A DNA stretch of 64,000 nt from Streptomyces sp. P9-A4 (GTDB lineage: Bacteria; Actinomycetota; Actinomycetes; Streptomycetales; Streptomycetaceae), in contig NZ_JAZIFY010000001.1 of assembly GCF_036634195.1 (NCBI RefSeq), forward strand, positions 3,792,501 through 3,856,500. Reading direction: 5' to 3'. Position 1 is the stretch's first letter, and every line of letters starts with the position of its first letter. Below are positions 28,478 through 43,977 of the stretch, one piece after another. The notes under the pieces were generated by a model that saw only the letters and a list, made by a program, of their open reading frames with translations, made no database searches and was not told the origin of the DNA. The position numbers were made by a program, and so were the translations under genes.

Positions 28478-28531
28478 TGATCCACAGCCAAAGCGACTTA
28501 TCCACAGGCGAGTTGACGATTCTGTGGACAA
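28478..28531. other. Cluster of three DnaA-box-like sites
   Basis: Three 9-mers lie within 54 bases of non-coding DNA. They are TGATCCACA (28478-28486, one mismatch), TTATCCACA (28498-28506, perfect for the E. coli consensus) and TGTGGACAA (28523-28531), which read on the minus strand is TTGTCCACA, the preferred Streptomyces box. They lie between kptA and the MerR-type gene, where they could also affect kptA transcription. Confidence 0.7.
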
Positions 28532-40442: not shown

Positions 40443-41249
40443 TCAGACCGACAGCAGGCGCTCCAGGACGACGGCGATGCCGTCCTCCTCGTTCGAGGCG
40501 GTCACCTCGTCCGACACCGCTCGCAGCTCGGCGTGCGCGTTGCCCATGGCCACGCCGTGGGCCGCCCAGCCGAACATGGGGATGTCGTTCGGCATGTCGC
40601 CGAACGCGATCGTCTCCGCGCCCTTCACGCCCAGCCGGCGCGCCGCGAGCGACAGACCCGTCGCCTTGCTCAGGCCGAGGGGAAGGATCTCCACGATCCC
40701 GGGACCGGCCAGGACGATGTCCACGAGACCGCCGACGGTCTCCCGGGCGGCCCGGGTCAGCTCGTCGTCCGTCAGCGTCGGGTGCTGGATGTAGAGCTTG
40801 GTCAGCGGCGCCGACCACACCTCCGCCGGGTCCTCGTACGGCACGTACGGCAGCGGCCCTTCCTGGGCCCGGTAGCCGGGCCCGATCAGGACCTCGCCCT
40901 CCAGACCGTCACGGCTCGCGGCCAGCGCCAGCGGGCCCACCTCCGCCTCGATCTTGGAGAGGGCGAGCCCGGCCAGCTGCCGGTCCAGGGTCAGCGAGGT
41001 GAGCAGCCGGTGCTCGCCCGCGTGGTAGACCTGCGCGCCCTGCCCGCACACCGCGATGCCCTCGTAGCCGAGGTCGTCCAGGATGTGCCGGGTCCAGGGC
41101 ACCGCCCGGCCGGTGACGACGATGTGCGCGGCGCCCGCCGCCGTGACGGCGGCGAGCGCGTCCCGCGTACGGTCCGAGACGGACTCGTCGGCGCGCAGCA
41201 GCGTGCCGTCGAGATCCGTCGCGACCAGGCGGTAGGGGAAGGGACTCAC
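40443..41249 (-). CDS. HAD-superfamily (Cof-type) phosphatase, second
   Basis: A 268-residue Cof-type HAD hydrolase with motif [13 protein letters not shown], motif [10 protein letters not shown] and motif [23 protein letters not shown]. It is a paralogue of the protein at 18689-19582. The GTG start overlaps the serS stop by four bases (GTGA), so it is translated together with seryl-tRNA synthetase, an arrangement I recall from other Streptomyces. The substrate is unknown. Confidence 0.85.
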
Positions 41250-42535
41250 TTGGCGATCGGCTCCAGGACCTCACGGCCGCCGAGGTAGGGGCGCAGCACC
41301 TCGGGCACCCGCACCGAACCGTCGGGCAGCTGGTGGTTCTCCAGGATCGCCACGATCGTGCGCGGTACGGCGCACAGCGTGCCGTTCAGGGTGGCCAGCG
41401 GCTGCACGGTCTTCTTGCCGCCCTGCTCCTCGCGCATGCGGACGGAGAGGCGACGGGCCTGGAAGCTGTCGCAGTTCGAGGCCGAGGTCAGCTCGCGGTA
41501 CTTGCCCTGGGTCGGGATCCACGCCTCGCAGTCGAACTTGCGGGAGGCGGAGGCGCCGAGGTCGCCGGTGGCGACGTCGATCACCTGGAAGGGCAGCTCA
41601 AGACCGGTCAGCCACTGCTTCTCCCACTCCAGGAGGCGCTGGTGCTCGGCCTCGGCGTCCTCCGGCGCGACGTACGAGAACATCTCGACCTTGTCGAACT
41701 GGTGGACGCGGAAGATGCCGCGGGTGTCCTTGCCGTACGTGCCGGCCTCGCGGCGGAAGCAGGGCGAGAAGCCCGCGTACCGCAGCGGCAGCTTGTCCGC
41801 GTCGATGATCTCGTCCATGTGGTACGCCGCGAGGGGCACCTCGGACGTGCCGACGAGGTAGTAGTCGTCCTTCTCCAGGTGGTACACGTTCTCCGCGGCC
41901 TGGCCGAGGAATCCGGTGCCCTCCATGGCGCGCGGACGGACCAGCGCCGGGGTCAGCATGGGGATGAAGCCGGCCTCGGTGGCCTGCGCGATGGCGGCGT
42001 TGACCAGGGCGAGCTCCAGCAGGGCTCCCACGCCGGTCAGGTAGTAGAAGCGCGAGCCGGAGACCTTGGCGCCCCGCTCCACGTCGATGGCGCCGAGCGC
42101 TTCGCCCAGCTCCAGGTGGTCCTTGGGCTCGAAGCCCTCGGCGGCGAAGTCGCGGATGGTGCCGTGCGTCTCCAGGACGACGAAGTCCTCCTCGCCGCCC
42201 ACGGGCACGTCCGTGTGGACGATGTTCCCGAGCTGGAGGAGCAGCTGCTTGGCCGTCTCGTCGGCCTCGTTCTGCTCGGCCTCGGCGGCCTTGACGTCGG
42301 TCTTGAGCTGCTCGGCCTTCTGGAGGAGCTCGGCGCGCTCCTCGGGGGTGGCCCTGGGGATCAGCTTGCCGAGCGCCTTCTGCTCGGATCGGAGCTCGTC
42401 GAAGCGGACGCCGGACGACCTGCGCCGTTCATCGGCGGAGAGCAGGGCGTCGACGAGCGCGACGTCCTCTCCACGGGCGCGCTGGGAGGCGCGAACACGG
42501 TCGGGGTCCTCACGGAGCAGGCGAAGGTCAATCAC
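41246..42535 (-). CDS. serS: Seryl-tRNA synthetase
   Basis: A 429-residue class II aminoacyl-tRNA synthetase. The N-terminal coiled-coil arm (about 25-105) grips the long variable arm of tRNA-Ser. The catalytic core holds motif 2 ([20 protein letters not shown]) and motif 3 ([19 protein letters not shown]). The start ATG is [18 protein letters not shown]. It has a 506-base non-coding upstream region with DnaA boxes. Its downstream partner is the overlapping HAD gene. A tRNA-Ser gene is present elsewhere in the window (61897). Confidence 0.97.
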
Positions 42536-43001
42536 CCCACCAGGCTACCGGTGCGTGTTCGCCCGCCCCCACCGGATAACGGCACGCGTGTTGTCACGCG
42601 TGCCGTTTCGCCCGAATTGATACCCGTGAAAACGCCGGGAGCGGTGCAGGGCATTCAGTTATCCACAGGCTGTGCGGAAGATCTGTGGATTACGGAGAGG
42701 ATCGCGGGGATTTCCCGCCGCCCGCCTGGGAATTCCGTGATCAAACGCCATTGAGACACTCATTTGGGTGGGAATTGCTTGCTCCGCTTGCTCCAACGAG
42801 TGGGTCTGACGAGGAGTGCTGACGGGGGCGTTGCGGCGGCGCTGTGGACAGGTGGGGTGCTCGGGGGTGTGACTAGGGCGATTTGTCGACCTTGTCGGGG
42901 CGAGCTGTCGACTTGTCCCCAGGTCGAGTGTGAAGCCTGTGGATAACTGCTGTGGGTAACTGAAAAATATGCAGGTAGGACTAGTGGGTCGTACCTGTGG
43001 A
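42536..43001. other. Non-coding region with a cluster of seven DnaA-box-like sites
   Basis: Seven 9-mers close to the DnaA box occur between the serS start and the pheA terminator. They are TTATCCACA (42659, perfect), TAATCCACA (minus strand, 42684-42692), CTGTCCACA (minus, 42843-42851), TTGTCCCCA (42913-42921), TTATCCACA (minus, 42938-42946, perfect), TTACCCACA (minus, 42951-42959) and TCGTCCACA (minus, 42996-43004, running into the terminator). The serS promoter must also lie here. No ORF in this stretch looks like a gene. DnaA-box clusters away from oriC are known in S. coelicolor. Confidence 0.8.
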
Positions 43002-43029
43002 CGAACGCTCCCGCCTTCGGGAGCGTTCG
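43002..43029 (-). terminator. pheA terminator
   Basis: CGAACGCTCCC (43002-43012) pairs perfectly with GGGAGCGTTCG (43019-43029) over a six-base loop, 13 bases after the pheA stop codon. Confidence 0.88.
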
Positions 43030-43041
43030 GTCACCATCTGA

Positions 43042-43977
43042 TCAGGCCCGACCGTCCTGGGCCCTCGCCAGCCAGTCGGAGGCCGCCATGAACTCACTGT
43101 CCGAAGTACCGCGCCGCAGCGCCCGTACGTCCTCGACCACGACGCCCGCCCTCGGGTACGAGCCGAGGAAGCGCACCTGGGGGCACATCCGCTTGAGCCC
43201 CATCAGCGCCTCGCCCACCCGGCGGTCCGAGATATGGCCCTCGGCGTCCACGGCGAAGCAGTAGTTCCCGATCCCCGCCCCCGTGGGCCGGGACTGGATC
43301 AGCATCAGGTTCACCCCGCGCACCGCGAATTCCTGGAGCAGTTCGAGGAGGGCACCCGGATGATCGTCACCCAGCCACAGCACCACCGAGGTCTTGTCCG
43401 CACCCGTCGGAGCCGCCGGCCGGGCCGGCCGGCCCACCAGCACGAAGCGCGTCTCGGCGTTCTCCGCGTCGTGGATCTCGGTGACCAGCGCTTCGAGACC
43501 GTACGTCGCCGCCGCGAACTCCCCCGCGAAGGCGGCGTCGAAGCGGCCCTCCTGTACGAGCCGGGCGCCGTCAGCGTTGGAGGCCGCCGACTCCCACACG
43601 GCCTCGGGCAGATTCGCCCGCAGCCAGTTCCGCACCTGCGGCTGGGCCACCGGGTGACCCGTCACCGTCTTGATCTCCGAGAGCCTGGTCCCGGGCCGGA
43701 CGAGCAGGGCGAAGGCGATCGGCAGCAGCACCTCGCGGTAGATCATCAGCGGCCTGCCGGAGGCCAGCTCGTCGAGGGTGGCCGTCACCCCGCCCTCGAC
43801 CGAGTTCTCGATCGGCACGAGCGCGGCGGCGGCGTCCCCGTTCCGTACGGCGTCGAGCGCGGCCGGGACCGAGACCATGGGGACGAGTTCCCTCGTCGCG
43901 GCCTCGGGCAGCGTACGCAGCGCGGCCTCGGTGAAGGTGCCCTCGGGGCCGAGATACGTGAACCGGTTGGCGGACAT
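43042..43977 (-). CDS. pheA: Prephenate dehydratase
   Basis: A 311-residue monofunctional prephenate dehydratase that makes phenylpyruvate for phenylalanine synthesis. The catalytic domain (about 1-190) begins FTYLGPEGTFTEAAL and contains the active-site TRF in ENAETRFVLVG. The C-terminal ACT domain (about 205-285; GALLELLQEFAVRGVNL) binds phenylalanine for feedback inhibition. No chorismate mutase domain is fused. It is a single gene with its own terminator. Confidence 0.96.
   Translation of the reverse strand: MSANRFTYLGPEGTFTEAALRTLPEAATRELVPMVSVPAALDAVRNGDAAAALVPIENSVEGGVTATLDELASGRPLMIYREVLLPIAFALLVRPGTRLSEIKTVTGHPVAQPQVRNWLRANLPEAVWESAASNADGARLVQEGRFDAAFAGEFAAATYGLEALVTEIHDAENAETRFVLVGRPARPAAPTGADKTSVVLWLGDDHPGALLELLQEFAVRGVNLMLIQSRPTGAGIGNYCFAVDAEGHISDRRVGEALMGLKRMCPQVRFLGSYPRAGVVVEDVRALRRGTSDSEFMAASDWLARAQDGRA

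Follow-up and report, generated by a model that had tools for sequence, protein, structure and literature searches.

We describe here a cluster of seven DnaA-box-like 9-mers, on both strands of the intergenic DNA between pheA and serS in a Streptomyces chromosome, which is probably a DnaA-binding locus that restrains the initiation of replication. The cluster occupies positions 42659 to 43004 of the window, the whole 64-kb stretch of DNA analyzed (positions 3792501 to 3856500 of contig C1). Its boxes keep their order, orientation, and spacing, are conserved, lie near oriC, and survive without either neighboring gene. To our knowledge, the setting of initiation frequency on linear Streptomyces chromosomes is only partly understood. 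This kind of locus is already known; new here are the two-module layout, with its conservation and the constraint on it within the family, and also a box order like that of the Escherichia coli DARS cores at another spacing. A precisely spaced element near oriC, kept in most of the sampled family, is a small target in which boxes, N16 gap, and spacer can be altered singly, and a DARS-like order at a different spacing offers a way to test if such clusters in actinobacteria affect DnaA activity besides titrating the protein. No paper on the two-module layout was found in the literature searched (reviews and citations), and the statement extends to that literature only.

The cluster in the window

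The intergenic DNA is 506 bases long, and both flanking genes are on the minus strand: serS, encoding seryl-tRNA synthetase (41246 to 42535; TIGR00414, 450.7 bits, cut-off 301.65), and pheA, encoding prephenate dehydratase (43042 to 43977; NF008865, 298.2 bits, cut-off 219). Boxes were defined as having at most one mismatch to TTRTCCACA. All seven sites claimed in an earlier note on this DNA are present, two as perfect copies of TTATCCACA and five with one mismatch. A module was described as a forward box at 0 and a reverse box at +25, with N16 between them, often joined by a third (reverse) box at +55; read in the direction of serS, the facing pairs of the window are A1/A2 at 42946 to 42913 and B1/B2 at 42692 to 42659.

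The pheA-proximal module A has A1 as its strong box (TTATCCACA, 42938 to 42946, minus strand, perfect; column conservation, 1.00) and A2 as the convergent partner at a 25-bp offset (TTGTCCCCA, 42913 to 42921, plus strand, one mismatch; column conservation, 0.96). A0 (TTACCCACA, 42951 to 42959, minus strand, one mismatch) lies 13 bp outside A1 in the same direction, and the third place of the module holds a weak box (TTGTCGACC, 42883 to 42891, plus strand, two mismatches) with a weak yet conserved GTCGACAA core. The strong box of the serS-proximal module B is B2 (TTATCCACA, 42659 to 42667, plus strand; mean column conservation, 0.99 among 177 loci), and its convergent partner B1 (TAATCCACA, 42684 to 42692, minus strand, one mismatch) is again offset by 25 bp (N16); read from the sequence, no third box of module B is recognizable at 42629 to 42637. 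Two more one-mismatch boxes, both on the minus strand, are CTGTCCACA in the inter-module spacer (42843 to 42851), at a position not common among relatives, and the outermost TCGTCCACA (42996 to 43004), which also occurs in L003, L007, and L008 and overlaps a hairpin after pheA. This 12-bp hairpin, read from the sequence after the pheA stop (43002 to 43029) and lacking a T run, may end pheA transcripts. A terminator scan, which requires a T run, found none, as did a promoter scan, which does not cover Streptomyces-type promoters; an Rfam scan of 42400 to 43200 gave a single subthreshold match (E value, 0.66; 20.2 bits versus a gathering score of 112), which was set aside.

The earlier note had expected few such boxes by chance, and the counts agree: the window holds 17, whereas 100 dinucleotide shuffles averaged 5.34 (sd, 2.40) and never exceeded 12, an average that corresponds to about 0.03 boxes per 346 bases.

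Conservation and layout

DNA upstream of serS was read in 130 of 151 Streptomyces genomes, the window's own included. Each of the 130 loci carries 4 to 9 boxes within 800 bp of serS, at least two of them perfect, and the serS-pheA intergenic DNA (78.6 kb in all) contains 725 boxes, whereas the adjoining pheA sequence has 14 in 76.1 kb. Box positions were thus conserved in the comparison of serS-pheA intergenic regions that the earlier note had proposed, and its idea was not refuted by non-conservation. A chance grouping in a GC-poorer stretch would fit the base composition (intergenic DNA, 61% GC; 42940 to 42990, 45%; window, 71%), but the shuffles and the reversed-pattern controls given below stand against it, and the occurrence of at least four boxes at every locus excludes it, leaving a negligible probability. 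Of at least 560 named SerS relatives, the best 80 all carry the name Streptomyces bar one, Actinobacteria bacterium OV450. Of 80 named loci, 70 have both modules, and the 80 have 2 to 9 boxes per upstream kilobase; 5 of these 80 loci are identical over 600 bp to one of the 130.

Both modules (at most three mismatches) were recognized at 114 of the 130 loci, one module at 15, and none at 1. A reverse box stands at +55/56 of module B at 103 of the 114 two-module loci, and a forward box at −12/−13 of A1 at 84. B1 is variable, with at most one mismatch at 39 of the 114, and the third box of module A reaches that level at 13. Column conservation was calculated from 177 distinct sequences, all selected for both modules, a choice that by itself accounts for part of the conservation of A1, A2, B1, and B2. 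The column means were 0.96 to 1.00 for A1, A2, and B2, 0.90 for B3, 0.81 for B1, and 0.64 for A0, the last no better than the non-box columns, which average 0.65 and of which about one-fifth reach 0.9, in patches. The variability of A0, B1, and the third box in module A counts against a restraint locus, as do the 16 of 130 loci without one or both modules. Conserved non-box patches, e.g., TTnCCACnCGAA and GTTTG, occur in the spacer of the window (42693 to 42912) and its relatives, which indicates that the spacer contains more than DnaA boxes; a mid-spacer hairpin is not conserved (stem of at least 4 in 25 of the 177 sequences).

The two modules are 254 bp apart in the window versus usually 233 to 236 bp in relatives. 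This usual spacing was found at 89 of the 114 two-module loci, with 243 to 246 bp at 12, 253 to 256 bp at 9, and 225, 248, 263, and 270 bp at the remaining four. Spacer length has an sd of 7.3 bp, versus 49.5 bp for the module-to-serS distance, which ranges from 134 to 477 bp. The spacings cluster at about 225, 235, 245, and 255 bp. When spacer changes of 4 to 24 bp were inferred on a pheA tree that included 111 of the 114 two-module loci, 17 of the 18 were close to 10.5 or 21 bp. The flanking distances used as controls change in similar steps (26 of 32 and 32 of 36 changes), so helical phasing is not claimed.

The facing pair was searched for as TTRTCCACA-N16-TGTGGAYAA. Because this pattern was chosen after the window and the first loci had been viewed, its checks are a reversed control and its rarity in the genome. 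With at most two mismatches, three copies were found in the genome, all inside the window, and none of the reversed control; two are the serS-pheA modules, and the third lies at 28498 to 28531. Allowing three mismatches added two further copies elsewhere in the genome. At two mismatches, 148 of 151 Streptomyces genomes carry the pair and 4 the reversed control; in a second sample, drawn from the order and sharing some genomes with the first, 130 of 135 Streptomyces genomes carry the pair, so that 3 and 5 Streptomyces genomes, respectively, lack it. The pair is not exclusive to serS-pheA, as G129, an S. coelicolor-like genome, also has one at −29 kb. Of 12 genomes from other families in the second sample, 11 match the pattern at two mismatches, but the sequences listed look different, and no claim is extended to these families.

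Relation to serS and pheA

Outside Streptomyces, 40 loci were read from 16 other genera of Streptomycetaceae, out of 111 genomes (2 without a SerS match). At least three boxes lie within 900 bp upstream of serS at 32 of these loci, 31 of them with pheA there too, and the pheA-serS distance is greater at the other 8. Boxes are kept beside pheA at 35 of the 40 loci and beside serS without pheA at 1. In L282, L283, L284, and L287, the boxes stand directly after pheA and an intervening gene precedes serS; by Pfam, this gene encodes a polysaccharide deacetylase in L282 and DAGK/PAP2 domains in L287, while L283 and L284 were read by eye. The single locus without pheA, in G350, has boxes beside serS, no pheA within 5 kb, and a peroxidase-like gene (by eye) adjoining the boxes. 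Genera such as g18, g7, and g15 show a different arrangement on the serS side, and in the DNA read from 4 of the 40 loci (genera g6 and g9), boxes are absent both directly after pheA and before serS. Since the boxes survive the loss of either neighbor, they seem to belong to neither serS nor pheA.

The earlier note had also suggested a possible link of the boxes to serS transcription, and this link is not supported. DnaA-operated control of serS (or pheA) would couple seryl-tRNA synthetase to the replication cycle, perhaps with ScbR/ScbR2 acting in the spacer, and it would agree with the position of the boxes upstream of serS and with G350, where they remain beside serS. It would also agree with a 28-base sequence printed for sco3961/serS among S. 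coelicolor ScbR/ScbR2 targets in the accessible part of one report (PMC4595836), which matches two genomes, one of them G129, with one mismatch, between the DnaA modules. The target table in that part of the report, however, gives serS a value of 0.947, which we read as no real expression change (PMC4595836). Four genomes keep the boxes after pheA despite a gene between the boxes and serS, and the module-to-serS distance is loose, as given above. A promoter-like element also stands at the serS start itself: TAGCCT (42542 to 42547, minus strand), a −10-like element by sequence pattern, lies 6 nt before the serS GTG and 112 bp from the nearest box. At 127 of 130 Streptomyces loci, TA[AG]CCT lies in the 22 nt that precede the serS start, which suggests a leaderless serS transcript, and TAGCCT is probably its promoter. 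The displaced boxes and this element argue for independence from serS; G350 speaks the other way. We consider a serS operator unlikely, because the boxes outlive the loss of either neighbor, and DnaA-operated control of either gene is accordingly improbable.

The 28-base sequence sits between the two modules in L140 and L141. Segments of it are found with 4 to 5 mismatches in other Streptomyces, and a search of genome contigs for the ScbR2 sequence as printed gave no exact match.

Position near oriC

In 44 Streptomyces genomes, serS and dnaA are 77 to 136 kb apart (median, 86; midpoint to midpoint). In every one of them serS lies 5′ of dnaA, and in 43 the two genes share a strand. G130 and G112, whose contigs start at dnaA, were omitted from the 44; measured across contig ends, their distances are 105 and 79 kb. 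The distance is 79 to 193 kb in seven genomes of other genera, and in four of these (g18 twice, g7, and g15) serS lies on the other side of dnaA.

Around oriC, 301.5 kb of the chromosome contain 73 boxes, and with gaps of up to 250 bp allowed within a group, oriC alone (12 boxes in 563 bp, none perfect) outnumbered the serS-pheA group (7 in 346 bp, two perfect). Many boxes and a local GC dip might point to a cryptic or second replication origin or a remnant of one. Such an origin is very improbable: oriC lies beside dnaA (3745360 to 3747033) and has no N16 pair at up to three mismatches, and no replication gene was seen beside the serS-pheA cluster, which, unlike oriC, is about 88 kb from dnaA, far off as the earlier note had it.

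In the stretches of G129 that were read (3569901 to 3574999 left out), the groups of at least three boxes are oriC, the serS-pheA cluster at +82 kb, and two others at −29 and +36 kb. Smulczyk-Krawczyszyn et al. (2006; J Bacteriol 188:6184) reportedly found three clusters in S. coelicolor, H69, H24, and D78, of which D78 is said to bind DnaA most strongly. Deletion of D78 reportedly raises initiation, and extra copies are said to lower it. From name and place, we take the S. coelicolor cluster about 80 kb from oriC to be D78. Like D78, the serS-pheA group is a box cluster near oriC, and its place at +82 kb in G129 fits that distance; the locus in the window is probably the counterpart of D78. 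The two-module layout is described here from sequence, and the comparison with D78 is one of place near oriC. In the excerpts available, three papers that cite Smulczyk-Krawczyszyn 2006 state that S. coelicolor box clusters repress untimely initiation (PMC5742627, PMC4585315, PMC10950094). The perfect boxes at serS-pheA are TTATCCACA and not TTGTCCACA, which the text seen of another paper lists as the S. coelicolor high-affinity box (PMC4285127).

Predicted function

DnaA sequestration is the most likely role of the cluster. The two three-box modules would bind several DnaA molecules and leave less free DnaA for oriC; a locus about 90 kb from oriC would be copied early after initiation, and early copying would make the DnaA sink larger and postpone the following initiation. 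Binding of DnaA, contacts between the two modules, and an effect on timing are offered as the best explanation and lean on the S. coelicolor cluster being cited as a repressor. The earlier note had suggested a titration locus, and in part this stood: box positions are conserved in Streptomyces and at 32 of the 40 loci read from the other genera, and Streptomyces genomes also keep the cluster near oriC. Conservation and place make titration a well-supported prediction. DnaA-box clusters (DBC) of Bacillus subtilis are said to titrate ATP-DnaA and thereby repress untimely initiation, their position near oriC being important (PMC5010248); they are likened to the serS-pheA cluster by this description, not by sequence. 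E. coli datA is also a box cluster away from oriC and represses untimely initiation, but its essential boxes, according to the section available, all point in one direction and are accompanied by an IHF site (PMC5742627), whereas the strong boxes A1 and B2 at serS-pheA face each other.

Forward-reverse-reverse boxes at +0, −14, and −26 were found at two places in E. coli MG1655, with the same spacing in both. From their map places, we take these to be DARS1 and DARS2. A description in the portion seen of PMC5742627 was also used for this assignment. The DARS cores resemble the modules in having three boxes, with box I opposite to II and III, and differ in their offsets (14 and 26 bp versus 25 and 55/56 bp at serS-pheA); in the window itself, the DARS-like order includes a third box that is weak (module A) or not recognizable (module B). 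The shared order would favor a nucleotide-switch site, releasing ADP from DnaA like DARS or hydrolyzing ATP like datA, rather than a passive sink. We regard such a switch as doubtful. Its spacing differs from that of DARS, datA has its essential boxes in one direction, and loss of DARS lowers the number of origins in E. coli according to the excerpt of PMC4585315; repression of initiation is what citing papers attribute to the S. coelicolor cluster, which makes an activating role like that of DARS less likely.

Within the preferred reading of a restraining DnaA locus, a passive sink does not obviously need a fixed layout, and the cluster may plausibly form a built complex instead of acting as a loose sponge. 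Further points against this reading are the unrecognizable third box of module B in the window, the Streptomyces genomes that lack the N16 pair, the box-less loci of g6 and g9, the placement on the other side of dnaA in four other-genus genomes, and perfect boxes that differ from the listed high-affinity TTGTCCACA. A more elaborate version is a minor possibility: two modules in DARS order, a near-fixed spacer with conserved patches, and the ScbR/ScbR2 site listed in S. coelicolor might form a DnaA machine in which loop assembly or the nucleotide state of DnaA is set by a signal, tying initiation to development in Streptomycetaceae.

Other box groups

The third N16 inverted pair of the window (TTATCCACA-N16-TGTGGACAA, 28498 to 28531) lies at +76 kb from oriC, with a further box beside it at 28478 to 28486 on the plus strand. 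By Pfam, this group (28478 to 28531) stands between MerR-family (PF13411) and KptA-family (PF01885) genes. Among the matches listed, 17 of 26 genomes have a further N16 pair 8 to 12 kb from the serS modules; no group of at least three boxes was seen near the place of kptA in the stretches of G129 read. A cluster with three perfect boxes lies 20 kb on the other side of oriC (L040, 10045 to 10279; C1, 3725044 to 3725278), and the G129 group at −29 kb, with four perfect boxes, has nearly the same order and spacing. Three boxes at +35 kb from oriC (L043, 5187 to 5275; C1, 3780186 to 3780274) are directly upstream of dnaB, identified by its DnaB helicase domains in Pfam, and in G129 a five-box group is found at +36 kb. 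Finally, a sequence like TTATCAACAGCCTGTGGACAACTTCGGTGGACAA, recurrent in several Streptomyces, was found between glyoxalase-like and TetR-family genes (Pfam) in L044 (17719 to 17752; C1, 3134718 to 3134751).
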